Positions 5,154 through 33,028 are shown, numbered from the stretch's first letter. The stretch: DNA of 64,000 nucleotides from Anaerohalosphaera lusitana (GCF_002007645.1 NZ_CP019791.1:3588593-3652592); one strand, 5' to 3'. Notes: generated from the letters alone by a model not told the origin. A program made the numbers and translations.

Positions 5154-7457
5154 TTATTTGGCAGTTATATGCCCTGCTGTTGCCTGTTTGCTGTTATTAA
5201 ACAAGGGTGAGCTGGAGCGATTCTGAGGCTTTGAAGCGAAGGCGAGGTTTGGCGTGTCGCCCATCTGGAGCACCAGCGTTCCGCCGTTTACGATCATTTC
5301 ATGAGTGATGTATCCTTTGGTGTAGGGTTTGCCGTTGTAAGAAGCTGACTGGATGTAGATATTTTCGGGGCTGTTGTTTTCGGCACGAATGGTGAAGGTT
5401 TCGCCGCCGTCGATCTGGATACGGGCCTCGTCGAGGGCGGGGCTTCCGAGTACGTAGACGCCGGCAGCGGGATGTACGGGGTAGAAGCCGAGGGCGGAGA
5501 AGACATACCATGCAGACATCTGGCCGCAGTCCTCATTGCCGCAGAGACCGTCTGGGCCGTCATGGTACATGGTATCCATGATGCGGCGGACCTTTTCGGC
5601 GGTCTTGTACTGCTGGCCGGCGAAAGCGTAAAGATACGAGATATGGTGGCCGGGCTCGTTGCCGTGTGCGTACTGACCGATCAGGCCTGATATGTCACTG
5701 GAAGCTCCCTCGCTGAGCTCGGAACTTACAGCCCACAGCCGATCCAGCTTTTCTGTGAAAGCCTGGTCGCTGCCGAAGAGGTCTATCAGACCTTCGGGAT
5801 GCTGGGGGACGAGCCAGGTATACTGCCAGGCGTTGCCTTCGCAGTAATCGTCCTTGCGGTGGGTGGAAGCAACCGGATCGAAGGGTTTTCGCCAAGAGCC
5901 GTCGGCCATTTTGCCCCGCATGAACTTAGTGGTCGGATCGAAATATTCGGCGTATGCAAGCGCGCGTTTGCGGAAGTATTGGGCATCCTCGGTCTTGCCG
6001 AGCTTTTCGGCCATTAGTGCTATGCAGGCGTCGTCAATGGCGTATTCGAGTGCCTTTGCGACTGCCTCGTTTTCTTTGTCGCCGGGTATGTATCCCATTT
6101 CCTTGAGGAATTCCACGCCTTCGCGTTCGTGCATTGCGGAAGTTTTGATCGCTTCGAATGCGCGTTCGGGATCAAATCCGTCGAAGCCTTTCATGTAGGC
6201 GTCCACGATGACGGGAACGGCATGGTAGCCGACCATGGTCCAGGTTTCGTTGCCAAGCAAGTGCCAGACGGGCAGAACGCCCTGCTGATCGTAGATGGCC
6301 AGCATGGACTTCACCATGTCGTCTACACGCTGGGGTTCGGTAATCGTCAGCAACGGCTGCTGGGCACGGTATGTGTCCCAGAGTGAAAAGATGCTGTAGT
6401 TTTCGAATCCGGGATCGGCATAAACTTTCTTGTCCGTGCCGCGGTACTGGCCGTTGCTGTCGTTGAACAAGACCGGTGCGATCATCGTGTGGTAGAGTGC
6501 GGTGTAGAACGTGCGTTTAACGCTGTCGCTGCCACTTTCGATGTTAATACAACTAAGCTGCCGGTTCCACTCTTCTCGTCCCTGTTCGACAACCCGCATA
6601 AAATCCCAATGAGGCATTTCGGTGCGGATATTACCAAGAGCGTTTTTAACACTGACCGGAGATATTGCGACCTTGAGCAATACCGGTTCGGAGTCGGCAT
6701 CGAGAGTGAATACGCCCTTTATTTTGTTGCTTTTCGTGGTATTGGTTTTCAGCTTGCGAGCGCCATCATAAACCGTGAAGCTTCGGGGGCCGTTCTGGAA
6801 TTTCATTGCGAAATAGACCCGCTGGTCCTTTGCCCATCCTGTGGAGAAGCGGTATCCGCCGAAGGTGGTATCGTCAATTTGCCTGATATATGTTTTAGTC
6901 GCGTGGTCGGTGTTTCCCTGCTGGAGATCGACGATGACGTGTCCGGTCTTGTCGGCTGGGAAGGTATATTTGTGCATGGCGACCCGTTCGGTGGCTGTGA
7001 GATCCACCTTCACGTCGTAGTCGTCAAGCTTGACGGAGTAGTGCGAGGGCCGAGCGGTTTCGTTGTCGTGGCTGAAGCGGGATGCGTATCCTGAATCGGG
7101 GTCCGCGTCGCTGCCGGGCTGGGTTTTGATCTCGCCGGTAAAGGGCATCATCATGATATCGCCGAGGTCGCCGATGCCGGTTCCGCTGAGGTGCGTGTGA
7201 GAAAAACCGACCAGGACGGAATCGGAATAATGATAGCCGGAGCACCAGTCCCAGCCTTTATTGAAACCATTCGGCCCGGGTTGGATTGCGCCGAACGGGA
7301 CCGTGGCGGCAAGGAATGTGTGGCCGTGTCCTGAAGTACCTATGTACGGATCGACATACTGAACGACATCCTGAGACTTTGCGTGAACGCCGCAACCGGA
7401 TATCATTGCAATGCCCAGGAAAACCAATATTATTGTTGTTGCTTTATTGTGCGTCAT
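5154..7457 (-). CDS. GH92 alpha-mannosidase, lipoprotein
   Basis: This 767-residue protein is a full-length glycoside hydrolase family 92 exo-alpha-mannosidase, a calcium-dependent inverting enzyme that trims terminal mannose. Family signatures are plain: GFSHTHLSGTG near residue 90, the acid-bearing HGNEPGHH near 600 and the base-bearing GNEDCGQMSAWYVF near 640. The N-terminus has a hydrophobic segment ending in the lipobox ISGC, so it should be a lipoprotein outside the cytoplasm. The chosen ATG has GAGAGGA upstream; another ATG three codons earlier is possible. With the GH99-like and GH38 genes nearby it makes alpha-mannan the best guess for the locus substrate. Confidence 0.93.
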   Translation of the reverse strand: MTHNKATTIILVFLGIAMISGCGVHAKSQDVVQYVDPYIGTSGHGHTFLAATVPFGAIQPGPNGFNKGWDWCSGYHYSDSVLVGFSHTHLSGTGIGDLGDIMMMPFTGEIKTQPGSDADPDSGYASRFSHDNETARPSHYSVKLDDYDVKVDLTATERVAMHKYTFPADKTGHVIVDLQQGNTDHATKTYIRQIDDTTFGGYRFSTGWAKDQRVYFAMKFQNGPRSFTVYDGARKLKTNTTKSNKIKGVFTLDADSEPVLLKVAISPVSVKNALGNIRTEMPHWDFMRVVEQGREEWNRQLSCINIESGSDSVKRTFYTALYHTMIAPVLFNDSNGQYRGTDKKVYADPGFENYSIFSLWDTYRAQQPLLTITEPQRVDDMVKSMLAIYDQQGVLPVWHLLGNETWTMVGYHAVPVIVDAYMKGFDGFDPERAFEAIKTSAMHEREGVEFLKEMGYIPGDKENEAVAKALEYAIDDACIALMAEKLGKTEDAQYFRKRALAYAEYFDPTTKFMRGKMADGSWRKPFDPVASTHRKDDYCEGNAWQYTWLVPQHPEGLIDLFGSDQAFTEKLDRLWAVSSELSEGASSDISGLIGQYAHGNEPGHHISYLYAFAGQQYKTAEKVRRIMDTMYHDGPDGLCGNEDCGQMSAWYVFSALGFYPVHPAAGVYVLGSPALDEARIQIDGGETFTIRAENNSPENIYIQSASYNGKPYTKGYITHEMIVNGGTLVLQMGDTPNLAFASKPQNRSSSPLFNNSKQATAGHITAK

Positions 7458-7606
7458 TTTTGTCATTCCTCTCTTTGTGTGCTTTTGGAGTGTTTACTCT
7501 AACCTGTAATTTTCTTGATAAACCGTTCGTTTGCAAGAAATTTAATGTGCCAGCCGCATAATAAATCATTAATAACATGCTAACCGGCACCCATACGTGC
7601 GACATA

Positions 7607-9251: not shown

Positions 9252-10787
9252 TCATGGCCTGATCGGCACTTTACCATTGTTTTTCTGTGGTTGGCCTGGC
9301 GTGCTTCGGCCTCGGTCGATGTAACTTTGCAGCAGGTTGGTCAGGCGGCGGACGATTTCAGGATGCTGGGCGTGCAGATTTTCGTTTTCGTCGATATCGC
9401 TGCTGAGGTCATATAGCTGAACCGGAGGCAGATCTTTTATCTTCGGGCTGCCGGGACGGGGCGGGCTCCAACCGCCGGAGCCGGGGCAGAGTATCAGTTT
9501 CCACTTACCCTGCCGGATCGAGAACGACCCGTTGACGGACTGGTGCACCGTTGCTTCGCGGAGGGGGCCGGTCGCGGTCCGCAAGAGGTTGGGGAGCATG
9601 CTGACGCTGTCTTCGGCGGCGCTGTCGGGGAGATCGATGCCGTTGATGTCTGCGGCGGTTGCCATAAGGTCGGTCAGGCAGGTGGTGTCGCTGCATCTGG
9701 TTTTCGCTTTGACTCGCTTTGGCCAGCGGGCGATGAAGGGCATTCGGTGGCCGCCTTCGTATATGTCCGCTTTGTGTCCGCGGAAGAGGTAGCTTGGGTC
9801 ATGGCCGTATTCGGCTAATTCTTCAAAGTTGACGTGCGGAGCGCAGCCGTTGTCACTGGTGAAGATGAACAGGGTGTTCTCTTTGAGGCCGTTTCGTTTA
9901 AGGGCGCGCATGACCTGTCCGACCGTGTGATCAACCTGGAGAACAAAATCGCCGTATTCGTTGGTGCCGCTTTTGCCCCGGAACTGTTCGGTCGGCAGGA
10001 TTGGGGTGTGCGGCGCGGGCAAGGCGAAATACAAGAAAAACGGTTTGTTCGATTCGCTGCGCTGGTCGATGTATGTGACCGCTTTTTCGGTCAAATCGGG
10101 GAGCACATCCTTGTGGACGAAGTCCGCGCCGGTTGGGCCTTCGCGCATGAGGAGTTTGCCTGTTTTGCCTTCGACGACGCGGTTCGGCGGTGCGGTCACC
10201 TTGTCGTTTTCCACGTAGACGTAGGGAGGGATGTCCAGGGAGGCGGGGAGGCAGAAGCTGTAGTCGAAGCCGTTGGTTGTGGGGCCTTGCTGGATCGGTT
10301 TGGTGAAGTCGATCTGTTCGGGGTTGTCGTCCTTCATCTGCCAGTGCCAGCCCAGGTGCCACTTGCCGATGCAGGCTGAGTGATAGCCGTAAGGCTTGAG
10401 CATGGAGGCGACGGTCATGCGATCTTTCTCGATCACTGGTGGTGAATCGCCCCAGATGCCGCCCTTTTTCAAACGGCTGCGCCAGCAGTATCGTCCGGTG
10501 AGGATGCCGTATCGGGTTGGTGTGCAGACGGCTGCACCGGCGTGGGCATCAGTGAAGATCATTCCTTCGGCGGCGAGCCGGTCCATGTTGGTTGTGTGAA
10601 TCTTTGAATCTTTGTTCATGCAGGAAACGTCGCCGTAGCCCAGATCGTCGGCGAGGATGTAGACTATGTTGGGGCGGTCGCTGGCAGAAGAAGGCTTGTC
10701 GCTCGGGCCGGTCATTCCTGCACAACCGCTGAATGACGCTGCACCGACGGTTAGTGCACAATTTTTCAAAAAGGTACGTCGATTCAT
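9252..10787 (-). CDS. Sulfatase, type I (CTPTR)
   Basis: This 511-residue arylsulfatase-family enzyme removes sulfate esters from a glycan. The catalytic Cys88 sits in CTPTRYGILTG, the C-x-P-x-R signature converted to formylglycine by a maturase that is not encoded in this window. Metal-binding residues are visible in VYILADDLG (residues 42-50) and in FTSDNG near 300. The leader MNRRTFLKNCALTVGAASFSGC combines a twin-arginine-like motif with a lipobox-like end. AAGGAA lies upstream of the ATG. It sits between the beta-helix gene (55 bases) and the pseudopilin gene (85 bases). The sulfated sugar is unknown; mannan or another algal glycan is inferred. Confidence 0.92.
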   Translation of the reverse strand: MNRRTFLKNCALTVGAASFSGCAGMTGPSDKPSSASDRPNIVYILADDLGYGDVSCMNKDSKIHTTNMDRLAAEGMIFTDAHAGAAVCTPTRYGILTGRYCWRSRLKKGGIWGDSPPVIEKDRMTVASMLKPYGYHSACIGKWHLGWHWQMKDDNPEQIDFTKPIQQGPTTNGFDYSFCLPASLDIPPYVYVENDKVTAPPNRVVEGKTGKLLMREGPTGADFVHKDVLPDLTEKAVTYIDQRSESNKPFFLYFALPAPHTPILPTEQFRGKSGTNEYGDFVLQVDHTVGQVMRALKRNGLKENTLFIFTSDNGCAPHVNFEELAEYGHDPSYLFRGHKADIYEGGHRMPFIARWPKRVKAKTRCSDTTCLTDLMATAADINGIDLPDSAAEDSVSMLPNLLRTATGPLREATVHQSVNGSFSIRQGKWKLILCPGSGGWSPPRPGSPKIKDLPPVQLYDLSSDIDENENLHAQHPEIVRRLTNLLQSYIDRGRSTPGQPQKNNGKVPIRP

Positions 10788-10872: not shown

Positions 10873-11718
10873 CTATCTCATCCATGACGGCCAGGGAGCA
10901 TCGTCTTGCGTGTAAGGATTATCGGGGTAATTGCGATCATACTGCTGGTGCCATTTGAAACCCCAGAGTTCTTTGATATCCACCTTTCTCAAGGAGCCGT
11001 CCATAAAGACGATGTTGGTTTTTGTTCCGTGTCGAAGCAGCGTCAAGGCTCGCATTGAACCTCGGCCGTCATTAACACCAAACTCTTCTGAATTTGGTTC
11101 ATCCGTGTGATGCGGCCAGACATCGACGGCGCTGGATTCGACAAAAAAAGGCACTTGTGAACGTTGCTTAACGTTAGTAAGTCTTCGCCAGAATGCTTCA
11201 GTCGGCAGCGGTGCGCCCCATGTGCCTTCGCTTGGGTCCATCAGCCAGGAGTTGGGCGCGTAACTTGACCAGAACCACTCGCCGTAATCGGGGTGATCCT
11301 CGTCAATTATCTTTCTGCCCCAGCATTCGTCGCGATCCTGCGGGAAGTAGCGACCGTCCGCGACCCAATCTGCCGCTGAGTTTATGTCCTGCTTTTTGTC
11401 GGCCTTGGCGCACAGCATGATGTCCGGCTGGTCCTCGTAATAAGGTCGCAGGGGCAAAAACCACCACTGGCCTCGCGGGTCATTTTGGCCGTCATCATCC
11501 CAATCGGCATCGGGGAACGTGTCGTTGTTGTCGTTTGTGTAAAACGACATCGCTATGTTCCATTGCCTCAAATTGGACCCACAGACTACTGCCATGGCAC
11601 TTTCTTTTACTTTTTGCAAGGACGGCATAAGGATAGAGAGCAATAAGGCAATGATGGCGATAACAACGAGCAGCTCTATTAAAGTAAATGCTTTGTTTTT
11701 TCGTTTATATGCCAGCAT
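10873..11718 (-). CDS. Type II pseudopilin-like protein, planctomycete type
   Basis: This 281-residue protein starts with a class III prepilin signal: after NKA comes FTLIELLVVIAIIALLLSILMPSL, so the prepilin peptidase should cut before Phe and methylate it. A long globular domain follows with Cys residues (VCGSNLRQW, MLCAKADKK) and ends near HGTKTNIVFMDGSLRKVD, a variant of the H-x9-DG signature of planctomycete pseudopilins. Such proteins are highly duplicated in planctomycetes and their job is unknown. AGGAGG precedes the ATG by six bases. It lies between two sulfatase genes with no other secretion gene nearby, which suggests a role tied to the glycan locus. Confidence 0.88.
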   Translation of the reverse strand: MLAYKRKNKAFTLIELLVVIAIIALLLSILMPSLQKVKESAMAVVCGSNLRQWNIAMSFYTNDNNDTFPDADWDDDGQNDPRGQWWFLPLRPYYEDQPDIMLCAKADKKQDINSAADWVADGRYFPQDRDECWGRKIIDEDHPDYGEWFWSSYAPNSWLMDPSEGTWGAPLPTEAFWRRLTNVKQRSQVPFFVESSAVDVWPHHTDEPNSEEFGVNDGRGSMRALTLLRHGTKTNIVFMDGSLRKVDIKELWGFKWHQQYDRNYPDNPYTQDDAPWPSWMR

Positions 11719-11932: not shown

Positions 11933-13558
11933 CTAGACCAATTTTCTAGCTTTGACCCCTTCATAATGCTTCGAATGGTTTTTTTTGAGCCATTCGAGGA
12001 GAGATTTGCGAAGTTCTTCCGCTTTGTCTGCGTACTGTTGCCGATCGGGGTTCTTGCCGAGAAGGTTGTTCATTTCGTGCGGATCCGAATTCAGGTCATA
12101 CATGGCATTGAGAACTTTTGAGGTTTTGGAATAGGGTATCATCAACTTCCAGCCGTCCTTGACGATCATGTAGTTGGGTGATACGTCGCCTCTGTAGTCC
12201 CATTCGGTGACGACATACTGGCCGTGCTCGGAGTCGGTGCCCTCGATCAGGCCGCGGAGGCTTGTGCCATCGCAGTTTTGATTGCCTGCCTGGAGATAGT
12301 CAAGGATCGTTGGAAACAGGTCGATCAGCGAAACATATCCGTCTACAGTTGTATTGTTTTTGATGGCATTGGGGTAACTGATCATCAGGGGGATGTGGGC
12401 GGACTCTTCGTAGAATACGTTCTTTTCCCGCATGCCGTGGGCACCGAGCATTTCGCCGTGGTCGCTGGTGAAGATGACGAGGGTGTTGTCGGCGATGCCG
12501 TTGCGGTCGAGGGCTTTGAGGATTTCGCCTACCCAGTCGTCGATCTCTTTGACCAGTCCATAGTAATTGGAGATCATGTACTTGATCTTTTCTTTGTCGC
12601 GGTATTCGGAGAGGTGTCTTCTGCCGTTAGCGTTTGCGTAGGGGCTGTTTGACATGTCGTCGTGTATGCTGGCCGGGGGTTCCATGTCCTCTGCGGGGTA
12701 CATGCTGTAGTATGGTTCAGTGGGAAGAATCGGTGAATGCGGGAAATGGAAGGAGCAGGTTATGCTGAATGGCTTGTCCTTGAGCCGTTCAATGGCTTCG
12801 ATGGTCTGTTTGGCCTGGAAAGCGGTCAGTGTGTTTTCTTTGTCCATGAGCAATTCGCCATGCTGATCGGGCTGGACGATGCGCATATCTTTGATTTTCA
12901 GTTGGTCCGGGTTTTTGCCATAGAGCTTATCAATTGGATCAGCCCTGTAGGGCCTGTTGGACATATTATCGCGGAACTGGCCGGGCTTGAGATTGCCTTT
13001 GGGCTCTTTGCCCTTGAGATAATCGAGCCAGACGTATTTCTGGCCGCCGTGATTGAAGATGGAATGTCCTTCTTTGGATTCGCTCAGGGGGTTTTTGTAG
13101 ATATCGGTGTGAGAGGAGAGGCTGTGCCACTTGCCGTAGTATTCGCAATGGTAGCCGCGATCGGTCAGGATCTCATCGAATGTGGGCATCGGCATCAGGC
13201 CTGTTTTCTCGGGGTAATAGGCCAGGCTGTTGGTGCGCATTTTGGTGTTCTCGACTGTACAGCCGGTGAGAACCGAGGAACGAGCTGGGCAGCAGACGGC
13301 ACAGGGTGAATAAGCGTTTTTGAAGTAGGCGCCCTGTTTGGCCAGTCGGTCGAGGTTGGGCGTTTCGAGCACATCGTTACCTGCAATGCTCAGAGCGTCA
13401 TAACGCTGCTGATCGGTCATGATGAAGAGCAGATTGGTTTTTTTGCGGCTGTTTTGTGAGATTTCGGCAGCGCGGGCAAGGCCGGTCAAAGCTGGAACTG
13501 CGGCGGAAGTTGCGGCTGCCTTTAAGAAGTCTCTTCTGTTGGGCATGTAATTTTTCAT
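11933..13558 (-). CDS. Sulfatase, type I (CCPAR), Tat leader
   Basis: This 541-residue sulfatase belongs to the branch with TDQQR as its first metal site (IMTDQQRYDAL, residues 46-56), also seen in choline-sulfatase- and heparan-N-sulfatase-like enzymes. Cys89 in CCPARSSVLTG is the residue converted to formylglycine. FTSDHGEMLG near residue 360 supplies further metal ligands. The leader NRRDFLKAAATSAAVPA is of Tat type. The ATG at 13558 is preferred over one 21 bases upstream because GGAG lies nine bases before it. A 136-base gap separates it from the upstream GH71/99-like gene, so it may have its own promoter. The substrate is not known. Confidence 0.92.
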   Translation of the reverse strand: MKNYMPNRRDFLKAAATSAAVPALTGLARAAEISQNSRKKTNLLFIMTDQQRYDALSIAGNDVLETPNLDRLAKQGAYFKNAYSPCAVCCPARSSVLTGCTVENTKMRTNSLAYYPEKTGLMPMPTFDEILTDRGYHCEYYGKWHSLSSHTDIYKNPLSESKEGHSIFNHGGQKYVWLDYLKGKEPKGNLKPGQFRDNMSNRPYRADPIDKLYGKNPDQLKIKDMRIVQPDQHGELLMDKENTLTAFQAKQTIEAIERLKDKPFSITCSFHFPHSPILPTEPYYSMYPAEDMEPPASIHDDMSNSPYANANGRRHLSEYRDKEKIKYMISNYYGLVKEIDDWVGEILKALDRNGIADNTLVIFTSDHGEMLGAHGMREKNVFYEESAHIPLMISYPNAIKNNTTVDGYVSLIDLFPTILDYLQAGNQNCDGTSLRGLIEGTDSEHGQYVVTEWDYRGDVSPNYMIVKDGWKLMIPYSKTSKVLNAMYDLNSDPHEMNNLLGKNPDRQQYADKAEELRKSLLEWLKKNHSKHYEGVKARKLV

Positions 13559-13694
13559 TGAAACTATCTCCTGGAACATGTCAATGTATTTTGGCAGTAA
13601 CGAAATTTATATTCTCGATTTTTGTAATGGGTTTTGTCATGACGCAAAAAATCAGCGGCCACCATCGTGTGCCATTAGAACGTCCGATTGCATA

Positions 13695-14993
13695 TCATCG
13701 GCGAAGCAGTTTGCCGGCCCTTCCCGCCAGCCGCAGGTAAAAATCACTCGGAAGCCCATCATATGTCAGAAATTTTGATCCGCCGGTTGTGGGAGGATTG
13801 TTCGAGCATTTGAAAATAGCAGTGGCCTCGTCTACCTCATCAAACATTGCAATATACAGCATTTCACAGCCGGCCTTTTTCACGGCAAGGACCTGCGACC
13901 AGAAAAACTTACCTTTGAGGCGGGGAATAGAATCGAGTTCGGCTCCTTTGAGGTTGTGCCAACTGAATCCGGGGAACACGACCGGCATATATCCGACCCC
14001 ATGTTCTTTGGCCCAGACAGCGTCCGGCCGCCAGTATTTTTTCGCATGGCGTTCCACTCCGGGCAAATCGCCGAAACGACCGACGCTCCAGGGGCTCAGC
14101 ACATCGGCCATTAACAGCAGATCGTGAAGTTTGGGGTTCTGCAAGGCGTCATTGTTCTGTTCGCGCCAGCCGGTGGCTATTCCCAGCATAACACTGCATC
14201 CATCGGCCTTGAATTTCTTGACCAGTTGCCTGCATTGCTCAAAGCCTGGTCGGCGCTTGATCTGGTTGTTAAAACCAACGCCCCATATGGCAACCAGCGG
14301 TTTGCCATTATAGTGCTGAAATGCCGGGTCCTCGGTAATGTGCATTTTATCTCGGAGCATACGCCAGTCATCAAACACGCGAGTGATTGCTTCGTCCGGA
14401 ATTCCGGTAAGATCGTACATGATCGTATAGGTACGACCATATCGGTTAGCGCCTTCTCTTGCACTGGAGAGCACCACGTCCTTGTGATATCGCATGGTTT
14501 TGTCATGGAGGCCGTTAGCGAACCGCTGAACGAAAGCGCCGTCGATACCATAATCCTGCATCCATTTGAAATGCCGCAGCACGGTTTTGCGATTATGTGA
14601 ACTGAATGTTTTAGCCGGTGTTCCGTCGGCATGAAAAAAGCCGGTGGTATAGAGCTCATCATCGTCATATTCTGAAACATCCGGCCACAGGTCGACGGCG
14701 ATATTATTCGGCTCAAACGGTTTATTACGGTTTTTGGCCCAATGGGTCCAACCGAGGTTTGCCCCATCTCCTTCGCAGTTAAACCAACCCTGGTAGCCTG
14801 TCATAACTTTGCCTTTCAATGTGCTCGGGTCGGAGCCAGGTACAGATGGGCCGTCATACGGTCTGAGAGGATCGCGGTTTTCTGCACTCACCGCGGCGGA
14901 ACCGGAAGCAGAGCCGTCTTCGCAGTAACCAAAGCCGCAAAGGCAGATGATAAAAAAGCCTATAAAGGTCAATCTGTTTTTATGAGACATCAT
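13695..14993 (-). CDS. GH71/99-like secreted glycosidase
   Basis: This 432-residue protein has an N-terminal signal peptide and a single TIM-barrel-like domain of the glycoside hydrolase 71/99-like group. Typical stretches are GYQGWFNCEGDGANLGW (residues 65-85), DYGIDGAFVQRF, VVFPGFSWHNLKG near 320 and MFDEVDEATAIFK near 380. GH99 cleaves internal alpha-mannosidic bonds and GH71 alpha-1,3-glucan; which applies here is open. The same domain forms the C-terminal half of the secreted protein at 25.5-27.6 kb, so the two are paralogues. The ATG at 14993 with GGAAGA upstream is preferred over one five codons earlier. It lies 52 bases after the GH99-like gene. Confidence 0.82.
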   Translation of the reverse strand: MMSHKNRLTFIGFFIICLCGFGYCEDGSASGSAAVSAENRDPLRPYDGPSVPGSDPSTLKGKVMTGYQGWFNCEGDGANLGWTHWAKNRNKPFEPNNIAVDLWPDVSEYDDDELYTTGFFHADGTPAKTFSSHNRKTVLRHFKWMQDYGIDGAFVQRFANGLHDKTMRYHKDVVLSSAREGANRYGRTYTIMYDLTGIPDEAITRVFDDWRMLRDKMHITEDPAFQHYNGKPLVAIWGVGFNNQIKRRPGFEQCRQLVKKFKADGCSVMLGIATGWREQNNDALQNPKLHDLLLMADVLSPWSVGRFGDLPGVERHAKKYWRPDAVWAKEHGVGYMPVVFPGFSWHNLKGAELDSIPRLKGKFFWSQVLAVKKAGCEMLYIAMFDEVDEATAIFKCSNNPPTTGGSKFLTYDGLPSDFYLRLAGRAGKLLRR

Positions 14994-15060
14994 GATTAAA
15001 TCTTCCATGTATTTTCGAGTAAGATGTTTTTTTGCTGAATGCCTGTTTGCTGCAGTCTGC

Positions 15061-16281
15061 TCAATTTTGCTTTAACTTACCGTTACATGTGCCGTTCAAA
15101 CCCTCAGTAACCATAAAGCTCTTTTCAATCTCCTGGCGTAAGATATCGAGGTACAGATAACCGTAGTCATAATAGGTCTGGCCGCCGGTGTAGTACGTGC
15201 CCGATTCGGAATCGTCCGTTTTGCTGGGGGGTGCAGTTCCGGAGGTTGCCTCGATCTGGGTGTCCTCGTACCACTCGTTGAAACTTGTGACCATGATGAT
15301 GTTGTCGCACGAAGGGTCGGTATTGGGGATTGCGGCCTTGCGTATCATGGCTCTGAAAATGTCTCCAGGCTGGGAATCGGGCGTGTCGGTGAAGTAACGG
15401 GCCCGGCCGGGGTGCCCATCCCGAACAGCAGTGTCATTGTAGCCGGGGGCGATCGCAGGGATGAAGGCTGTTCCCACGCTGTTGGCGGCTTGTTTTGCCT
15501 GTTGGTAATTGTGGGCTAGAAACTGCACGGCTTTTTGCGTGCCGCCCAACTTGCTGATCGATTGGCCGTAGACATCGTAGGCGGTTACGGCGTCGAAGTT
15601 TTTTGCCCATTCGGATTTGTAAACGCTGGTGGAGTCGCCGTAGAATACGTCATCGCCTACGAGGTAGATTTCGGGGAGTTCGCGGCGCATCTGCTCGAGT
15701 GCATCTGCGCCCCTACCGCGGAAATAGACCCGGGAGAGATATACGAACACGACGGGTCTGCCGTTTATCTTCAAATAGTTCGGATTATCGAAGTATTGAT
15801 CCTTGAGATATCGCATGTCGTCCATCCAGTTGCTGTAGTCGGGATTTTTGAAACTCCCGAATCGGCCTGTCGATTCATACAGGATCGCATACTTTAGTTT
15901 CGAAGCTTCCGGGTGGGTCAGGATATGATCCTTGAAGTTGCGGTCCGTGGACTCATCAGGGCCCCACCAGCTAACGGCCCAGAATTCAATGCCGGCCCGG
16001 ACGCTCTGCTCGATATGCTCGGCGATGACACTGGGATTTCGTGAATCATAGAGGCCGGCTTTGGGTATCTGCGGAGTTCTGAGGTGCAGACGCATTGCCT
16101 GTTTCCACTTGTGTTTGGACCTGATGTACCAGGGATAATAATATGTTCCCACGGAGATCTTGGCGGGTGCATCCGCCACGGGCTCAGGTATTTTTTCGGC
16201 CATTAGATTCCAACAAAATAATCCAAAGAATAATATTAATATGACAGTTCGCTCATAAAAACTTCTTTTTGTTTGAATCAT
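15061..16281 (-). CDS. GH99-like endo-alpha-mannosidase/mannanase candidate
   Basis: This 406-residue protein has an N-terminal hydrophobic signal segment and the hallmarks of GH99-like domains: VGTYYYPWY at about residue 45, AVSWWGP near 100 and TSFNEWYEDTQIEAT near 330. GH99 enzymes cut internal alpha-1,2-mannosidic bonds and are found in yeast- and algal-mannan loci. Its ATG at 16281 overlaps the end of the SSS symporter gene by 29 bases, so translation is probably coupled. GGAAAG lies just upstream. With the GH92 and GH38 genes it builds the case for alpha-mannan. It could also be one of the broader 'GH99-like' proteins found with glycosyltransferases, but the signal peptide argues for a secreted hydrolase. 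Confidence 0.82.
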   Translation of the reverse strand: MIQTKRSFYERTVILILFFGLFCWNLMAEKIPEPVADAPAKISVGTYYYPWYIRSKHKWKQAMRLHLRTPQIPKAGLYDSRNPSVIAEHIEQSVRAGIEFWAVSWWGPDESTDRNFKDHILTHPEASKLKYAILYESTGRFGSFKNPDYSNWMDDMRYLKDQYFDNPNYLKINGRPVVFVYLSRVYFRGRGADALEQMRRELPEIYLVGDDVFYGDSTSVYKSEWAKNFDAVTAYDVYGQSISKLGGTQKAVQFLAHNYQQAKQAANSVGTAFIPAIAPGYNDTAVRDGHPGRARYFTDTPDSQPGDIFRAMIRKAAIPNTDPSCDNIIMVTSFNEWYEDTQIEATSGTAPPSKTDDSESGTYYTGGQTYYDYGYLYLDILRQEIEKSFMVTEGLNGTCNGKLKQN

Positions 16282-18313
16282 CGTCTTTCCCTACACCGGT
16301 TTGACCCCATTGGTCGTTATCTTTATTTACTGCAAGCTCAGCATCGTAAGCTTCTGTGTCTTCGTAAAAGTTTTCTCTGGGAAGCTGTCTGTACCAGAAC
16401 AGGTACATGCCGCCCAATGCAAATGCCAAGATGATGCCTGCACCGACAAACTCCTTGAAATTGCCGATAACCAGCAGGACCGGCACGAGCAGGATCAGGT
16501 AATGCCAGGCAAGTACAAAGGGCAATGAAATGATATCGAAGAAATGCTCCCGGCTGACTTTCTTGCGGGTTTGGGGATCCAGTTTTTGCTTGAGATTGGG
16601 CCAGAGGCCAAACGGCTTGGTTTTCATGTAAAAGTTATACAAGATGTTCTGATCCATGGGCCTGGTCGCCAGGGTGCCGATTATAGATCCGGCCAGACTG
16701 AGAGAGCCAGTGAGGACAAATTGCCACAGCTCTGACATATCCGGCCAGAAGATGCGCTGCACGATGGCACTGCCGACCCCCATTGCCATGCCGATGGTAA
16801 AACCCCAGCCGTTGTAACGTTCCCAGTAAAACTTAATTGCGCTGGGTACGAAGAAGCCGGTTCCCAGGGCCATCATAAGCCAACCCCAGATGTCGTTGAT
16901 GTTTTTGACGGTGAAGGCCATGAAGTATCCGATCAAACCAATGGCGACGGTGCCGAGCCAACTGATGCGAATCAGCTCTTTGGTACTTGCATTTGGTCTG
17001 AAGAAGCCCTGGTACAGGTCTCGTGTGATCAGGCCAACGGCCCAGTTGACATTTCCGTCGAACGTGGACATGCAAGCGGAGGTCAGGGCGATGAGCAAGA
17101 GGCCCTTGAGACCGATCGGGATCGCATTCATGATCACAACAGGCAGAATGCGTTCGGGATTGATGGTGCCATGGAAGCTGGTCAACCGGATCTGTTCTGG
17201 CCAGGTGGACCCCAGTAAGTCCCGAAGCTGTGTCACGAGCTGCGGATATTCGGTAGGATGTTTGATGATCTCACTGACTGTGTGTTCCCATTGCTGATGA
17301 GTGACAGTGGTGAAGGTGTTCTTGATCATCATCTCCGCTTCGGCGAGAAGTGCCGTGTCCGGTATGTTCTGGTGTACAAAATATATACCGAGAACCGCAA
17401 ATCCGATCATCATCGGCCAGCGAAAGGCCATCAAGCTTGTCCAGAGAAAAGTCAGGGTGCCGCATTCGCGGTCGTTTCGAGCGCCGAAATACTTTGGCTC
17501 ACCGCCGCCGCCCAATCCATTTATGACGCTCTTGAGAAGATAGAACATTGCCATCAGGGTGAGGAAATTGTAGTTTCCGTATCCTTCGGGCATGTCGACC
17601 TTCCAGTGGGGAACGGAGCTGGTCCATTCCTGCACTCCGGAGATGCTGGTTGCCAGGCCTGGGAAATTGGGATCGAACCAGGTTTTCTGGATTGCCAGAA
17701 CGCTCACAACCAGCACGGCGGCAATGATGATCAGTCCCTGGAACAAGTCAGTGAAGACGACACCGTAGAAACCGGAGGCGGCTGTATATGCACATGCGAT
17801 CAAGATAACAACCAGTGAGCAGGCCTGGGGACTGTAAGGCAGGAAGGTGGAAAAGAATATGCCAACGCCTTTTGCGAGGTAAATAACCATGCCGATTGTG
17901 AAGATCTGCATTGCGATGGCTGTGATGATCCGTGCAGCCTTGCCGTCCGGGCCGTTACCGAAGCGGAATATCATCCACTCGGCTCCGGTGATACATCCGC
18001 TGCGTCGATGCCATTTCCCGGCCCAGATCAGAACGACGGCCATATGGATAGCAAGCCCGCCGCGAAGCTCGATCAGCATGCCCTTGGGGCCGAGCATGTA
18101 AAGGAATGAGATGATAACCGCGGTGCCCGTGATGTCGACAAATTGAGTGAAACCAGCAATGCCGAGCAGCCAACCCGGCAATCTTCGGCCGCCAATGAAA
18201 TAATCCTCTATGCTGTTGGAGGCTTTTTTCTGTAGATAGACTCCGATTCCCATCAAGATGATGAAATAGCCTGCAATCAGAATATAGTCAATCGGCGTTA
18301 AAAGTGTGCTCAA
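16253..18313 (-). CDS. Sodium:solute symporter (SSS family)
   Basis: This inner-membrane protein of about 686 residues has some 14-15 hydrophobic segments. It has the SSS family start (DYILIAGYFIILMGIGVYLQKK, then SIEDYFIGGRRLPGWLLG). It would couple sodium entry to sugar uptake, which suits a marine habitat. A TTG at 18313 is the likely start because GTGAGG lies six bases before it; the alternative GTG at 18346 has no ribosome site. It overlaps the GH99-like gene by 29 bases. Upstream, the gap to the GH38 gene holds a 14-base palindrome and a GTAAT/ATTAC repeat. The transported sugar is probably a mannose-containing mono- or oligosaccharide, by context only. Confidence 0.88.
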   Translation of the reverse strand: MSTLLTPIDYILIAGYFIILMGIGVYLQKKASNSIEDYFIGGRRLPGWLLGIAGFTQFVDITGTAVIISFLYMLGPKGMLIELRGGLAIHMAVVLIWAGKWHRRSGCITGAEWMIFRFGNGPDGKAARIITAIAMQIFTIGMVIYLAKGVGIFFSTFLPYSPQACSLVVILIACAYTAASGFYGVVFTDLFQGLIIIAAVLVVSVLAIQKTWFDPNFPGLATSISGVQEWTSSVPHWKVDMPEGYGNYNFLTLMAMFYLLKSVINGLGGGGEPKYFGARNDRECGTLTFLWTSLMAFRWPMMIGFAVLGIYFVHQNIPDTALLAEAEMMIKNTFTTVTHQQWEHTVSEIIKHPTEYPQLVTQLRDLLGSTWPEQIRLTSFHGTINPERILPVVIMNAIPIGLKGLLLIALTSACMSTFDGNVNWAVGLITRDLYQGFFRPNASTKELIRISWLGTVAIGLIGYFMAFTVKNINDIWGWLMMALGTGFFVPSAIKFYWERYNGWGFTIGMAMGVGSAIVQRIFWPDMSELWQFVLTGSLSLAGSIIGTLATRPMDQNILYNFYMKTKPFGLWPNLKQKLDPQTRKKVSREHFFDIISLPFVLAWHYLILLVPVLLVIGNFKEFVGAGIILAFALGGMYLFWYRQLPRENFYEDTEAYDAELAVNKDNDQWGQTGVGKDDDSNKKKFL

Positions 18314-18352
18314 TATTAACCTCACTTCCGTGTCAATCAGAAACACTGTCGC

Positions 18353-18415: not shown

Positions 18416-21367
18416 TCAGTGTACAAGGAATTCCAGCGTCTTAATCTCCTTGGGCCTTATTTCAAGATTACACCAGCCAGCCTCGTCCAGTGCAAGTTCT
18501 TTTTCGGGTAGTTCTTCCAGGTTCACGGTCCGTGCCCTTGTCCAGGGCTGCTTACCGGTGCCTGGGAGAGCCATTTCGTTCTTGAGTCTTTCAATGGGGC
18601 TTGGTGACGATGGGAAATCAGCCATTCCACCGTTGAGCCGTATTTTAGTCCGGATAGCTGCTGAGGAGGGATTGAACAGACGGACGACCCATCCGCTGCC
18701 TTGCTCGCTTTGTTTGACGGCAGAGACGGCGATACGCTCATCGGAAATCTCAAGGAAGGACTTTTTGAGCGGTTCTGTGCCATTTTCGGTCGGAGCGGTC
18801 TGGCCTATGACCAGCGGCAGGTTGAACTTTTCAGCAGCATTCCAGAGGTCAGCTTTTTCCCAGTCGCCCTGGTGGGGCATGACTGCATAGTGGAACTTAT
18901 GTCTGCCGAGGCACTGCGAGCTCTTGTCGATCTGACTGTAGTCGGTCATTTCCTGGGTGACGCAGATACGCAGCGGGAAACAGCGAAGCAGTGTGAGGCG
19001 CAGTTCGGGCTGAGTCTGATCGGTCGCTTCGTAGGCTTTCATGCCCTCGTTCAAGAGTGCAAGGCCGTGGGTTCCGTCGGAGATATCGATAAATGAGTTC
19101 ATGGGCTGTTCGGCCTGCGGGGTCTCGAGGCAGTTATCCGAGTATGTGATCTTGACGGGGCGTTCGGCTACGTCAAACTGGCTTTGGGCGAAGGTGGTAT
19201 CGGCCGTGATGCCGCTTGGGAAGGCGACCTGGAGGTGGTGATCTTCGACGGTGTTGTCGACTTCGGTCACGATGTCTACCCATGACTGGCCCTTGCGCAG
19301 CGTGATCGTGTTTTCGATATGGACGGTTTTGAAGTGCCTGCTGCGGGCACTATCATCGGCGGTACGGCAGGCAGGCAGCGACCAGTCGATAGCAATTTGA
19401 TAGACGGTTTCGAGGGCGCCTTCGCGAATCAGGGTGATCTGTGCGCTTTCGTTTATTGTCGTAAAGTCCTGCTTAGCTTCAACATCCCGGTGCTGCCAGG
19501 GGTCGCCGACTTCGGCTGTGTCGGTGAAGTATCCCATGCGTTCGAACACTTTTCCGGTTCGCTTGTCGGTAATCGTCATTGTGCCGTTGCCTTGGATGGC
19601 TACGCGGAGGTATTCGTTTTCCATCGTGTTGGTGCCTGTGACCATTGTGGCGGGCCGGGGCTGAACGGTATCCTCTGCGCTGATCGGCCGGACGAAGAAA
19701 GTCGTGTAGCCGGCTGGGGGGATATTCTTCAGCGCGGCCCTGGCGCGGTATTGTGTGGTCAGGAAATTGTTGGCTGTGTCGTTGGGTGACTGAACGACCT
19801 GGAACGATTCGGAGGATCCGAGCACCTGCACATCGGCCTTGCGTCCGTGTACGTCCACGATCTCGAATGAGCCGGACCCGGCTTCACGCGGGATCTCGAG
19901 GTTCAGCGAGACGACTTCGTCTCGCTTGAATGGGGCGGGGTTGTAGACCAGCAAGGCGATGGACTCGTCTTCATGTGCGGCGTAGTCGAGGGTGCCGGCA
20001 ATATCGAGCAGAGCCCGTTCGGAGACGCAGCCGGCGATCTCGCGACACTGGCGGGTGCGGAAAAGCATGTCCTCACTGACAACGGCACGGCTGCAACCGC
20101 CGATGGAATCGTGGCCGTGGTTCTGCAGCAGCCATTCGTATGCGTGGGCGAGGAACTGCTGGGGGTATTCTGCGCCGAGCATGGAAGCGTAAACGGCCAG
20201 CGGTTCGGCGTACCGGATCAGCTCTCGTTCGGTCCTGAAGTTGTCCATCTTGATGTCCATGCGAGCCGAGATCACTCCGCCGAACAGCGGGCTGGTGGCC
20301 TTGGAGTCGGAATAGTATCGCATCTCGCCCTTGCAGACGGGCAGGTCGTCGAGATTGACGTTTTCAAGGACCTGTTTCTGGAACTCTTCGAAGGTGCTGT
20401 GGATCACTTCGGCGTTGCCCTGGAGGGCCTTATTGCAGTCCTCGATCATCCTGACCTCTCGGATGTCGGGGCAGGAAGAATCGTGGCCGCAGGACCAGAA
20501 ACGGTGGGGAGTTGTCCAGTCGCCGTCCTGTTCCTGCATGGCCTGTTTGGCGCGGGCGGGGATCGATGCTGGGTCGTAGCCGAATTTGGGACGAGCGTAC
20601 TGAGCGTCGAATTGGCTGTAAAGGTCGCCGACGAATTTGAAGGGACCGTTGCCGGAGTTCCAGGGAACGACGCGGCTGTCCTCGTCTTGCTGCTGCCAGT
20701 ATGCGGGACGCTGGATGACGTACCAGACATTGTATCGCGGGCGCATGGAGAGACGGGAGCCGACGATACGGGTGCCGTCAGCCCCCTGCCATATGTATTC
20801 TGAGTTGGGGGACTGTTCGGTGTTGACGCCTCTGTAGAATGCCGCGAACTCGATGCCGAATGATTTGTAGATCTGCGGCATCTGGGATATCTGTCCCCAG
20901 CCGAACGGAGAGTAGCCGGTCTTGCTGACATGGCCCATTTCGCCGGCAATCTTGTGGCCGAGCAGGAGGTTGCGGATGAGGGATTCGCCAGCCACGGAGA
21001 ATTCATCCGGCAGGCAGAACCAGGGGCCGACGAGAAGTTTTTTGTCCTTGATGAGCTGTCGGACGGTTTGCTCTTTTTCGGGTCGGATCTCAAGATAGTC
21101 GCGAAGAGGGATAGTCTGGGAGTCGAGGTGGAACGACTTGAACTGCGGCTCCTTTTCGAAGATGTCCAACAGCATGTCCATCATGTACACGAGCATGTGT
21201 CTGGTTCGCTGCATCGAGAACCGCCACTCGCGGTCCCAATGGGTATTTGAAATGAAGTGACACTGCTGAAGAGGCTGCGTCTTGCTTATTTTGTTTATGA
21301 GTCCATGCGAGTATGGCTTTATTTTTTTTCTACCGGCTTGTTTGTTTTTACCACTTATTATTTCCAT
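18416..21367 (-). CDS. GH38 alpha-mannosidase-like protein lacking nucleophile Asp
   Basis: This 983-residue protein covers the full length of glycoside hydrolase family 38. The zinc-binding HWD is at residues 43-45 (NTHWDREW), VGPWFCLPDEF is near 113-123, and the third zinc ligand lies in NHGHDSIGG. At the position of the catalytic Asp, where relatives read PD-x-FG, this protein reads GYSPFGWGQISQMPQIY, with Phe155 aligned to the nucleophile and zinc ligand. No Asp or Glu lies nearby and the reading frame is intact. No signal peptide is seen, so it should act in the cytoplasm on imported oligosaccharides, if active. It starts four bases after the HAD gene. GGGGAT lies upstream of the ATG. 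Confidence 0.87.
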   Translation of the reverse strand: MEIISGKNKQAGRKKIKPYSHGLINKISKTQPLQQCHFISNTHWDREWRFSMQRTRHMLVYMMDMLLDIFEKEPQFKSFHLDSQTIPLRDYLEIRPEKEQTVRQLIKDKKLLVGPWFCLPDEFSVAGESLIRNLLLGHKIAGEMGHVSKTGYSPFGWGQISQMPQIYKSFGIEFAAFYRGVNTEQSPNSEYIWQGADGTRIVGSRLSMRPRYNVWYVIQRPAYWQQQDEDSRVVPWNSGNGPFKFVGDLYSQFDAQYARPKFGYDPASIPARAKQAMQEQDGDWTTPHRFWSCGHDSSCPDIREVRMIEDCNKALQGNAEVIHSTFEEFQKQVLENVNLDDLPVCKGEMRYYSDSKATSPLFGGVISARMDIKMDNFRTERELIRYAEPLAVYASMLGAEYPQQFLAHAYEWLLQNHGHDSIGGCSRAVVSEDMLFRTRQCREIAGCVSERALLDIAGTLDYAAHEDESIALLVYNPAPFKRDEVVSLNLEIPREAGSGSFEIVDVHGRKADVQVLGSSESFQVVQSPNDTANNFLTTQYRARAALKNIPPAGYTTFFVRPISAEDTVQPRPATMVTGTNTMENEYLRVAIQGNGTMTITDKRTGKVFERMGYFTDTAEVGDPWQHRDVEAKQDFTTINESAQITLIREGALETVYQIAIDWSLPACRTADDSARSRHFKTVHIENTITLRKGQSWVDIVTEVDNTVEDHHLQVAFPSGITADTTFAQSQFDVAERPVKITYSDNCLETPQAEQPMNSFIDISDGTHGLALLNEGMKAYEATDQTQPELRLTLLRCFPLRICVTQEMTDYSQIDKSSQCLGRHKFHYAVMPHQGDWEKADLWNAAEKFNLPLVIGQTAPTENGTEPLKKSFLEISDERIAVSAVKQSEQGSGWVVRLFNPSSAAIRTKIRLNGGMADFPSSPSPIERLKNEMALPGTGKQPWTRARTVNLEELPEKELALDEAGWCNLEIRPKEIKTLEFLVH

Positions 21368-21371
21368 TATT

Positions 21372-22409
21372 TTAATCCCCGATGATTTTCAAAATCTGGT
21401 TTAAGTCATTGCAGTGATGATGGCAGAGTCCCAAGGTACCGCTTTGGGCGATATTGCCGCCTGCCAAGCCTACGACAGGGAAGTTTGCAAGGCGTATGGC
21501 ACAAACTCCTGCGCTGCTGTCTTCGATACCTATGACCTGAGTATTATTCTGAGGCTCGATGCCCAGTCCCACGCGCGCGACTTCTGCGTAGAGCCACGGA
21601 TGGGGCTTGGGTGAGAGTTCTCCTAAGGTTCCTACAGAGCCTTTTCTGAGCGGGAAGCCTGCTGTAATGATTGCGTCGTAGAATTCTTTTGGGTCGGGCA
21701 TGTTCAGTGTCTTGAAGGCCGAGACTATCTCCGGCCAGGCCTTTTCGTACAGGCCTGAGGTCACCAGACCAATTTTTATCTTGCGTGATTTCAGTTCGCA
21801 GAGGAAGTTCTTTAGCCCCGGGGTGGGGACGAAGGCGTCTGTTCTGCCGCGACCGTTCATTATCTCGTTCATTTCGCGGTGGGTGTGTTCGAAGTAATAG
21901 TCGCGTGCCTGTTCGATCGTTTTGTCGGGGCAATACTTGTCAATACAGTATTGGAGGTGCTCGGAGACGCTGTGGCCCGAAACGAAGGGCAGGTCCTCGT
22001 CACTGAGCTCGAATTCGGGTTTGTCGAGGAGCGAAGCTGTGGTCATTTGAATGATCCAAATCCAGAAGCCTTCGCTTCGAACGCTTGTACCATCAAGGTC
22101 CATAAGCACCGCTCTGGTCGGCTTCTTTATTTCGACAGGCTGAATGGGGTAGTAGGCCGGGTAGCCCAACGCAGAATTTACGTAGGCGAGGACATGAGAA
22201 TCAAAAAATATGAATTCCACTTTTCCGTCGCCGGTTTGGCAGATGTAGTTTACGCCACCGATGCCCGTATGAAATTTTGCATCGCTGGTCGAGGCGAGGG
22301 GCGCAAAGTCTTCGTTCTTTGCATTAGGGCCTAAGCAACGAATGTATTCTTCGCTGTTTAGAGATGCAAATGTTGTCATGTTTGAATGTTTATCTGACAG
22401 GCTTTTCAT
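21372..22409 (-). CDS. HAD hydrolase, beta-phosphoglucomutase-like, with N-terminal extension
   Basis: This protein of about 345 residues belongs to the haloacid dehalogenase superfamily, subgroup of sugar-phosphate phosphatases and beta-phosphoglucomutases. Motif I is MDLDGTSVR near residue 98, motif II VTSG, motif III Lys in SPKPHPWLY, and motif IV GIEDSSAGVCA. It probably handles a sugar phosphate in the cytoplasm. The ~95 residues before motif I are unusual, since motif I normally lies within the first 20 residues. The start is uncertain: ATGs at 22409 and 22379 are in frame, neither with a clear ribosome site, but conserved-looking sequence extends back past both. It lies 33-51 bases after the large metallophosphoesterase gene and four bases before the GH38 gene. 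Confidence 0.82.
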   Translation of the reverse strand: MKSLSDKHSNMTTFASLNSEEYIRCLGPNAKNEDFAPLASTSDAKFHTGIGGVNYICQTGDGKVEFIFFDSHVLAYVNSALGYPAYYPIQPVEIKKPTRAVLMDLDGTSVRSEGFWIWIIQMTTASLLDKPEFELSDEDLPFVSGHSVSEHLQYCIDKYCPDKTIEQARDYYFEHTHREMNEIMNGRGRTDAFVPTPGLKNFLCELKSRKIKIGLVTSGLYEKAWPEIVSAFKTLNMPDPKEFYDAIITAGFPLRKGSVGTLGELSPKPHPWLYAEVARVGLGIEPQNNTQVIGIEDSSAGVCAIRLANFPVVGLAGGNIAQSGTLGLCHHHCNDLNQILKIIGD

Positions 22410-22460
22410 TTTAGTCGGCGATTGCAATTTGTTTGATAATTTCGACTTGCCATCTTTTTT

Positions 22461-27652: not shown

Positions 27653-30600
27653 TCAATATCCCGGCGACGGTGAGGCTGCCTCCCAGTTTGAATGATCACG
27701 GCCATAAGTGTCGAAATTTTGACGATGGAGCGAGTGCCCGCCGCCATCGGCACTGGTCGGCCATGGTGGGGCATCGTCATAGTCTATCTTTTCGATCGGC
27801 ATCCAGTAGCGTGCCTTGCCGTATTCCTGGTCACCTGGGATCTGTATCTCGATTTCCTCGCCGCCATTGTCCAATTTGCCGTCGTAAGGGCCGTACACGG
27901 GGCAGAGTGCGGAACTGTAATTGGCCGGATTTCTGGCCACAATTATGTAACTGTATGGCGGAATGGTCACGCCGGCGGGGAACTCATAGCCGGTGCCCTC
28001 CAATCGCCAGGGGATATCTTCTGTGAAAAAGACGCCCGGTGAGGTTTCGGTCTTAGCTTCGGTCTCGAGCGTGACCGCGGAACCCGAGCGGTTGTACAGC
28101 TCAACAAACTCATAGTCGGCTCCGGAAGGCGGTTTGTAATAAATCTCGGTGATAACAACTTCCGGAATGAGAGGGCCGTCATTAGCAGCACCCGGTGTCA
28201 GTGAACTCTGGCGAACAAAATCATACCCGCCGGACAGTTCGGCCTTCTGGTAACGGCCGAACGTGACGCCCGTTTCAGAGGCATCAAACGTCTGCTGGGT
28301 CTGATACAGGCCGGTGACTTCTCCGCCCTGCCCGGAATAGAGGTACACCGTCTCTCCTCCTTCGCTGAGACCAAAGGGCAAATTGCTTCCAGTCCCGGTT
28401 GGGTCGCCGAAAGACGAATGTTCTTCGAATACCATGTAGTCGCCTGAAGCAATCACGGTATTATCTGGTATCTGGTATTTTCGTATTGTGTTTGGATCAG
28501 AATCGTCATCAGTCAGGAACCAGCCGCCGATATTAATTTCCTGTTCAGTTGTGTTATATAGTTCGATCCAGTCGGCATCAGCACCATGAGAGTGGGCGAG
28601 TAATTCGTTAAAAATGATGCTATCTGCTGCTATGACGGCATGCGGGGCCGTTCCAGGGGAGCCGCCAGTGTAAAGACTTGATCGCCATCCTGCTTTGGTA
28701 TCCCACAGATTGGGATCAGTTGCGGCCGGATCGACCATCGTGAGTGAATATCCTATGCCGTCAGTCAATTCATACCAACTGTCATTGTAGTCAAAATCAT
28801 GGATCTCAGCGCCGATCGCATCCCGAAGGACAATCTCTTCACCTGCGTTGTCCAGAGCACCGACATACTGGCCGGCGACGGGCAGGTCAGAGCCGTACCG
28901 AGCCTCAAAGTCCGCCCGGTTCTCGACAATAAGGACATATTCGCCGGCAGCGAGCGTATAGTCGCCGAAGACAAAGTCAACCCCATCGGTAAAGTGAACT
29001 AAGTTCAGATTGATCGCATCGTCCCCGACATTTTGCAGTTCGATAAATTCGGTATTCGTATCGGACGGATGATACATGATCTCGGAAATCCGCAGGCTTT
29101 CAAGGACCGGTCCAACGGCGTAGGTTTCCCTGTTCAGCGCGCTCCATTCTCCGTCGGTTCTCACACGAGCTTTTACACAGGTACTCTTTTCAAGCGTAAC
29201 CGGCGAACCTGTTGCGGCGACCTCGAGAACGAGTTGGGCGGAAATTAAAAAGTCCGAGCTGCCAAGGCCCCGGTTAAAACCGCGAATTGCTAAAATGTTG
29301 TCTCCGGCCTGAAGATGGCTGAGATGTTCGGAGCAATCAAAATCGATCTGCGTAACCGCAGAGGAATCACCGTGCAGGCCGGTCGCGCCATCATCCCAAC
29401 TCGGCGATATGGGAGCGTTGGCGGATGCAATTTCCGCGCCATTCAAGTAAGCCCTGAATCCATCGTCATATCGCATACGCAGTGTCATTGAAAGAGCATT
29501 TGCAACCTGATCAGCCACCGCTGTGAATGGTATCCTGATGTAACAGGTCTGCCTGACATCGCTCATCAACGTTTCAACATCGTAGGTAATGTAATCTTTA
29601 TACGTCGTCCTCTCATCATAGCCCACTCCGCCGACGGTAACGCCGGTTGTTGGCGTTCCGTGTGTCCAGGCGGAGTCGTCATAGGGTTCTGCTCCGCCGG
29701 TCCAGTTCATTCCGATGTCGTTACCGGGTACCAGAACTGCCTTGGGCGCATCTTCTGAAACGAGTGTTTCAACGGTTGAATCATCGGGTTCGATGTAAAG
29801 CTGGGCGTCGGGATTGACGGCGCCGCCCTTGAGACGCGGGTCCTCACCGTTCAGGGTATAGTAAATATTTCCTGAAGCCCCAGCGGGCGTACGGGGATAA
29901 ATCGAGCCGCCCGGACTGAGATAACCACCTGATGGACTTAGAATTGGAGGGACAGCCCCAAACTGAGACGCAATATACCCATCCAGCCAGTCGAAGCGGC
30001 TGGTGATCCAGTCCTTAAAGAGTGCGATTTCCGTATCGAAGGAATTTGGGTAGTATTTCCTAGGCCGTGACCTCGCCTCGCTTATCATGGCAGCCGTTTG
30101 ATCAATGTAGGCCATGGTTTCATCGGTACTTAAGACTTTTTCGCGATGTTCGAACCAGCGATCGGCAACCATGAGTCTGTATTCAGGATCTTCCTGCATT
30201 TTCTGATGCCACTTACCAAAAATCGAGCCGTTCGTTTTCCATACGTAGGTTGGCTGATCATAGGTACCTGAATTATTATGGAAGCCTCGGTCGTAATCCC
30301 ACGGCGGGCCCGAATGTATCTTTCCGGTGCGGTCCTTGTGAGTGTAGTAGCTACCCCAGAAGGCGTCCGAATCACTGCAGATCTGTTCGAGCAGCCCGTG
30401 ATCGATCCAGGAAACCACATCGATGTAGTCCGCGTACACGGCGTGGGGACCCGGGTAGAAGGTGCTGGAGGTATTCTGCCAGAGCACTGAACTGGTTTCA
30501 TTAAGAAAGCCAGCGATCCAGTTGATCTGAGGTTGTGTGATTTCCGGAAACTCGGGTTCGTCTACGATCGGTTTACCCGCCCCGGTGACCTGGATGCCGT

Positions 30601-32926: not shown

Positions 32927-33028
32927 AATTAACCTTCGCAAGGCTGTTTCAAATAACTGGCAGTAATAGTTAAATTAGCAAAAGCTCCTTTTCGAGACTC
33001 TCCGGTCGGACAACGCAGCAGCGGATGC

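Follow-up and report, generated by a model that had tools for sequence, protein, structure and literature searches.

The window, by which we mean the whole stretch of 64,000 nucleotides analysed here, carries on its minus strand a row of genes in the order HAD, GH38-like, SSF, GH99-like, GH99-like, sulfatase, pilin-like, sulfatase, with a GH92 gene further on. The GH38-like gene (18416–21367) encodes 983 aa in an unbroken frame and is assigned, on the basis of Pfam and alignment, as a nucleophile-less GH38-like protein. Located 4 bp upstream of it, the HAD gene (21372–22427) encodes a HAD-IA phosphohydrolase/phosphomutase-like (beta-phosphoglucomutase-like) partner. On the other side lies an SSF sodium:solute symporter (16253–18346), whose gene is overlapped by that of a GH99-like protein of the endo-alpha-mannosidase family (15061–16281); a second GH99-like protein (13695–15008) is a weak match under the Pfam cut-off. 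The same cluster, again on the minus strand, holds one sulfatase at 11933–13579, another at 9252–10787 and a GH92 alpha-mannosidase (5154–7466). This gene set suggests use of alpha-mannan, and the original prediction of a mannan locus is plausible for the window, where the GH92 and GH99-like genes and the sulfatases speak for it, but the setting is not constant across the clade of related proteins described below. Two giant secreted-type proteins are also encoded on the minus strand of the window, namely a CotH kinase with lamin-tail and lectin domains (27653–32941, 1762 aa) and a pectate-lyase-like protein (33029–37420, 1463 aa).

The nucleophile position of the GH38-like protein

Within the 983-aa protein, the GH38 N, C and C2 domains score above their Pfam cut-offs (94.8, 82.7 and 38.9 bits) and the middle domain falls slightly below (28.9 vs 31.1 bits). 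The nearest named family is MngB (NF007331), which is matched with 434 bits against an equivalog cut-off of 1138 bits, and most of the protein can be aligned to solved GH38 structures. No obvious signal peptide was found by eye. With bacterial GH38 alpha-mannosidases and MngB (SpGH38 2WYH, 3LVT) the protein shares the domain order, the HWDREW and NHxHDSI zinc motifs, the general acid Asp and the overall alignment. It differs from them in belonging to a clade that has lost the Asp serving as nucleophile and fourth zinc ligand, that carries Arg in place of a conserved Tyr, a further Arg at position 49 and an invariant Gln159, and that is accompanied by a HAD partner.

Residue roles were taken from the solved S. 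pyogenes GH38 (SpGH38, 2WYH; PMC2815779) and transferred by alignment. The predicted zinc ligands are His43 (21239–21241), Asp45 (21233–21235) and His419 (20111–20113), equivalent to SpGH38 H13, D15 and H351, with Asp420 following as the equivalent of D352, and Asp296 (20480–20482), at the position of D232, is the predicted general acid (acid/base). The nucleophile and fourth zinc ligand of SpGH38, D125, is replaced by Phe155 (codon 20903–20905, minus strand) at a site that aligns without gaps (GYSPFGWGQISQMPQ / GYFPDTFGNMGQTPQ), and F127 is replaced by W157. The original prediction had placed Phe155 at exactly this position, with all other GH38 hallmarks retained, and the SpGH38 alignment confirms both the replacement and the three remaining predicted zinc ligands and adds the general acid to the list. 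Its argument that misalignment is unlikely and the frame unbroken is borne out as well, since the site is ungapped, the 983-aa frame is open and 35 homologues also lack the Asp. Misalignment or a frameshift was therefore rejected, as the whole clade agrees at an ungapped site. A conserved Asp or Glu relocated to the zinc site, which the original prediction had named as the observation that would speak against it, was looked for among clade-specific positions; the only acidic one is D761, which lies in the beta domain with no sign of being in the site, so that a moved nucleophile was rejected too. Judged by these alignments, Phe155 in place of the nucleophile Asp is real and not a single lesion. 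An AF2 model of the protein from 15 sequences reached a pLDDT of 54, with about 25–40 across much of the N-terminal domain, and was too poor to be used; the active-site positions given here rest on alignment.

Clade membership and active-site conservation

Homologues were collected from 148 related genomes, 392 genomes of the phylum and 348 genomes of a second phylum (Bacillota), which was reached via a match in an Oscillospiraceae MAG, and by an additional contig scan. This yielded 35 non-redundant long homologues with the Asp and 35 without it, the latter carrying Phe (30), Thr (4) or Ser (1) instead and showing 28–80% identity. In a tree of 72 rows, from which the trait columns were omitted, 34 Asp-less rows are split off by one branch with an SH-aLRT of 99, requiring one change, where the tree stems from a quick LG+G4 search and has long branches at the outgroup join. 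The clade is nested among Asp-type bacterial GH38 proteins, adjoining an Asp-type planctomycetal group, and shows the signature [FTS]-[SG]-[WFY]-G-Q instead of D-x-F-G, with Gln159 being invariant. The alignment and tree that the original prediction had proposed as a check thus do place the variant in a clade, and loss of the nucleophile is, on this phylogenetic evidence, of single origin inside Asp-bearing bacterial GH38. Members were also found beyond Planctomycetota, in the Oscillospiraceae MAG (L044), whose genome lacks the HAD, and on a Zixibacteriota chromosome (L050, CP070824), where masked sequence interrupts the gene; either case may reflect transfer or a binning error. No relatives turned up on viral contigs.

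Throughout the clade, D296, H419 and D420 are kept in all 35 members, and H43 and D45 in 33 of the 34 rows with residues at these positions, the exceptions being members with disrupted or missing N-termini (L058, L060). The retention of the acid and the zinc ligands despite loss of the nucleophile argues that the cleavage machinery minus its nucleophile is under selection. Around the vacated position, the residues that had served the carboxylate are changed in a consistent way. In SpGH38, Y192 is hydrogen-bonded to the nucleophile D125, while R149 favours its ionisation (PMC2815779). At the Y192 position, 34 of 35 Asp-type proteins have Tyr and all 35 clade members have Arg (in L033 shifted by one residue); in the window protein this is Arg211 (20735–20737), which we propose as a phosphate-binding residue. 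Position 49, directly after the HWDREW motif, is Tyr in 31/34 Asp-type proteins and Arg in 30/34 clade members, among them Arg49 (21221–21223) in the HWDREWR of the window protein. The R149 position is occupied by Arg179 (20831–20833) and is basic (R, K or H) throughout the clade, and Arg205 (20753–20755) is found in 32/35. Loss of a carboxylate together with a cation replacing its hydrogen-bond donor is what would be expected if an anion lay on the beta side of C1. The conservation at positions 211, 49 and 179 suggests a cationic pocket where the carboxylate was, a feature that an anionic nucleophile would require. As a side observation, one Asp-type GH38 (L061) has an Arg near the nucleophile-contacting Tyr position and is a possible intermediate.

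The HAD partner and the gene neighbourhood

The HAD of the window retains the catalytic residues D110, D112, T223–S224, K274 and E302–D303, and all HAD catalytic residues are likewise kept among the 14 members of its family, which are 45–78% identical to the window copy. With beta-phosphoglucomutase (TIGR01990; YcjU; 4GIB) it shares the HAD-IA fold and the catalytic Asp-x-Asp, Lys and Glu-Asp. The only significant PDB sequence matches of the family are the beta-phosphoglucomutases 4GIB and 3NAS, and a model of the HAD shows the HAD-IA fold with beta-phosphoglucomutases among the best Foldseek matches; in VIA-align, phosphatases and beta-phosphoglucomutases rank equally. The differences are an identity to YcjU of about 25%, TIGR01990 scores of about 21–39 bits (31.6 for the window HAD) against a cut-off of 189.4, the absence of an equivalent of the distal-phosphate Arg49 of beta-phosphoglucomutase, which aligns with Val154, and an N-terminal extension of about 100 aa. 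Being far below the cut-off and without this Arg, the window HAD is possibly a phosphatase, although activity is retained in R49 variants of beta-phosphoglucomutase (PMC9171722). The extension is kept in most members, has no Pfam match and is not covered by the fold matches, which lie in the HAD part.

The distribution of the HAD follows that of the clade closely. Among the 148 relatives it occurs in 26 genomes, 25 of which hold an Asp-less GH38, and among the 392 genomes of the phylum in 8, all of them within the 10 that carry the clade, with Fisher values of 1e-21 and 3e-15 that ignore shared ancestry. In the 26th genome (G145), the contig stops about 250 bases beyond the HAD, and it does so on the flank at which a GH38 gene would be expected. 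Among 40 loci retrieved for the clade, 14 carry the HAD within about 8 kb, in contrast to none of the 20 loci with an Asp-type GH38. It accompanies T-type, FSFG-type and WGQ-type branches alike, including the deepest of the clade, and the link between HAD and clade therefore looks old. One genome (G041) holds five Asp-less GH38s and one HAD; several such proteins per single HAD would be expected for one shared product. Asp-less GH38s without the HAD occur in G012 (99% complete), G031, G035, G040, G147, G260 and G530, so that the HAD is not obligatory; G079 lacks it too, but its GH38, matched in the C-terminal part only, is a candidate Asp-less member. Substitution by beta-phosphoglucomutase copies in HAD-less genomes was considered as well and proved uninformative, beta-phosphoglucomutase-like HADs being found everywhere. 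In Bacillota, the HAD was found in none of 348 genomes, a group offering no positive control.

The loci of relatives share the HAD, the SSF symporter, which adjoins the GH38-like gene in many of them too, and often sulfatases (7/55 and 6/71 neighbours), and show no fixed mannanase set, so that the substrate may differ among members; the neighbourhood surveys of clade loci do not fix it. The same SSF subfamily also stands beside Asp-type GH38s (L193, L194) and is thus not phosphorylase-specific. Several further families recur. Near distant nucleophile-less GH38s, the most frequent Pfam family is that of the URO-D/MtaA-like proteins (9/71 neighbours; L119, L128, L129, L132, L134, L135), and a GxGYxYP putative glycoside hydrolase adjoins the HAD and the GH38-like gene in the T-type branch (L132, L133, L136). 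Type IV pilin-like (N_methyl) proteins are found in the window (10873–11718) and beside other clade loci (L146, L147, L148, L150, L152). The window also encodes Gfo/Idh/MocA oxidoreductases, which turn up close to a few clade members as well.

Proposed reaction, alternatives and known systems

For a protein that keeps its acid and its sugar-binding metal, has lost its nucleophile, has gained cationic residues next to the vacated position and co-occurs with a beta-phosphoglucomutase-like HAD, the best account is an inverting phosphorylase, and the sequence has the general acid without a catalytic nucleophile that such an enzyme calls for. We therefore consider a cytoplasmic, GH38-derived, Zn-dependent inverting glycoside phosphorylase the best explanation of the window protein, with a probability of roughly 0.4. 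The SSF symporter would import a small alpha-glycoside, here perhaps an alpha-mannoside freed by the set of GH92, GH99-like proteins and sulfatases. Zinc on His43, Asp45 and His419 would grip O2 and O3 of the −1 sugar, as in GH38, and Asp296 would protonate the leaving group. Arg211, together with Arg49, Arg205, Arg179 and perhaps the zinc, would hold inorganic phosphate for an attack on C1 from the face formerly occupied by the Asp. The product, a beta-hexose 1-phosphate formed with inversion, would be turned into hexose 6-phosphate or else dephosphorylated by the beta-phosphoglucomutase-like HAD. Phosphate as the nucleophile, inversion, the HAD reaction, the sugar and the subcellular location are what we infer from these observations. 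A point against the proposal is that Phe is bulky for a phosphate pocket. Extended to the whole clade, an equally tentative reading is that its members are Zn-dependent inverting phosphorylases in which phosphate, held by the invariant Arg and perhaps the catalytic Zn, replaces the covalent Asp, and which, if the −1 sugar is mannose, would be alpha-mannoside phosphorylases that form beta-mannose 1-phosphate and work with a HAD mutase of their own.

Inversion is also conceivable with water as the nucleophile. Metal-bound water is thought to attack in the Ca-dependent GH92 and GH47 alpha-mannosidases, inverting enzymes that place a metal at the −1 sugar and use no covalent nucleophile; the clade would resemble them in these two features and differs in its unrelated fold and in its predicted use of Zn instead of Ca. 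In the clade too, water or hydroxide bound to Zn on the beta side of C1 could attack directly, given that the zinc ligands and general acid are kept and that the zinc of apo SpGH38 carries a water (PMC2815779), with the HAD serving another step. This we hold to be rather unlikely, since it explains neither the invariant Arg211 and the Arg49 that replace Tyr nor the tie of a phosphohydrolase-type HAD to exactly the Asp-less clade. These Args could alternatively bind an anionic group of a phosphorylated, sulfated or uronic glycoside, with catalysis by Zn-water or another residue and the HAD stripping phosphate from the product. The recurrence of sulfatases near the clade would fit such a hydrolase, as would the identity of the nearest named relative, the mannosylglycerate hydrolase MngB, which is matched far under its cut-off. 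We consider it more doubtful still, because Arg211 occupies the position of the nucleophile's Tyr neighbour, on the side from which C1 is attacked and not that of O6 or the leaving group, and because neither a PTS nor a fixed kinase partner was found; SSF symporters do not phosphorylate their cargo.

A retaining hydrolase assisted by its substrate would likewise need no enzyme nucleophile, if a Zn-activated O2 attacked C1 to give a 1,2-anhydro sugar, a route proposed for GH99. GH99-like genes lie in the same operon, but such neighbours are uninformative on the mechanism of the GH38-like protein, and this scheme, too, leaves the Arg replacements and the HAD linkage unexplained. Even though the zinc of SpGH38 binds those groups of swainsonine that mimic mannose hydroxyls (PMC2815779), we regard it as improbable. 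The absent nucleophile could simply mean a catalytically dead protein, such as a lectin, a sensor or a regulatory subunit of the locus, and nucleophile-to-Ala variants of GH38 enzymes have served to trap substrate complexes (PMC2815779). However, the clade retains the general acid and zinc ligands even though its members have diverged to about 30% identity, and an invariant Arg at the position contacting the nucleophile is not what decay would produce, leaving little probability for a dead protein and making a plain pseudoenzyme unlikely. Of the three readings offered by the original prediction, the pseudoenzyme and the binding protein are thus disfavoured by conservation and by the dedicated HAD partner, and the subfamily with another mechanism is supported by a monophyletic, long-lived clade with the acid, three zinc ligands and specific active-site replacements. 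Least probable is a lyase or 3-keto-type elimination enzyme, in which Zn would polarise a 3-keto or uronate group and no nucleophile would be required; the Gfo/Idh/MocA oxidoreductases noted above would suit it, but they make up only 3/71 neighbours of distant members and belong to a family abundant in these bacteria.

For the phosphorylase reading, the closest known counterpart is the combination of an inverting GH65 alpha-glycoside phosphorylase with beta-phosphoglucomutase, for which E. coli ycjT-ycjU is the textbook precedent. Both systems combine an importer, a nucleophile-free enzyme for the cleavage of alpha-glycosides (a putative one in the clade) and a HAD, but the GH65 fold is unrelated and has no Zn, and its partner is a true beta-phosphoglucomutase, whereas that of the clade is beta-phosphoglucomutase-like only. 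In a related genome (G039), a GH65 phosphorylase stands in one row (L188:6664–11653) with a true beta-phosphoglucomutase and a symporter of the same SSF subfamily, and an Asp-type GH38 comes next. In another locus (L191:2854–5754), a GH65 phosphorylase is fused to beta-phosphoglucomutase in one frame of 967 aa.

In the open-access literature, to which our search was confined, we found no description of a nucleophile-less GH38, of an alpha-mannoside phosphorylase or of such an enzyme pair. By descent, the clade is a branch of GH38; by chemistry, as predicted from its residues, it fails the defining test of the family, the Asp nucleophile being absent, and a new phosphorylase family may have originated here. 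Databases name its proteins alpha-mannosidases even though the residue of the defining chemistry is missing. If the proposed reaction is true, a metal-dependent hydrolase would have turned into a phosphorylase, the nucleophile having been lost once, long ago, and its absence maintained together with a new Arg and a phospho-sugar enzyme. GH38 would gain a phosphorylase branch, and beta-mannose 1-phosphate and alpha-mannoside synthesis might become accessible by an enzymatic route. The emergence of phosphorylases from hydrolases would thereby become a directly testable question.
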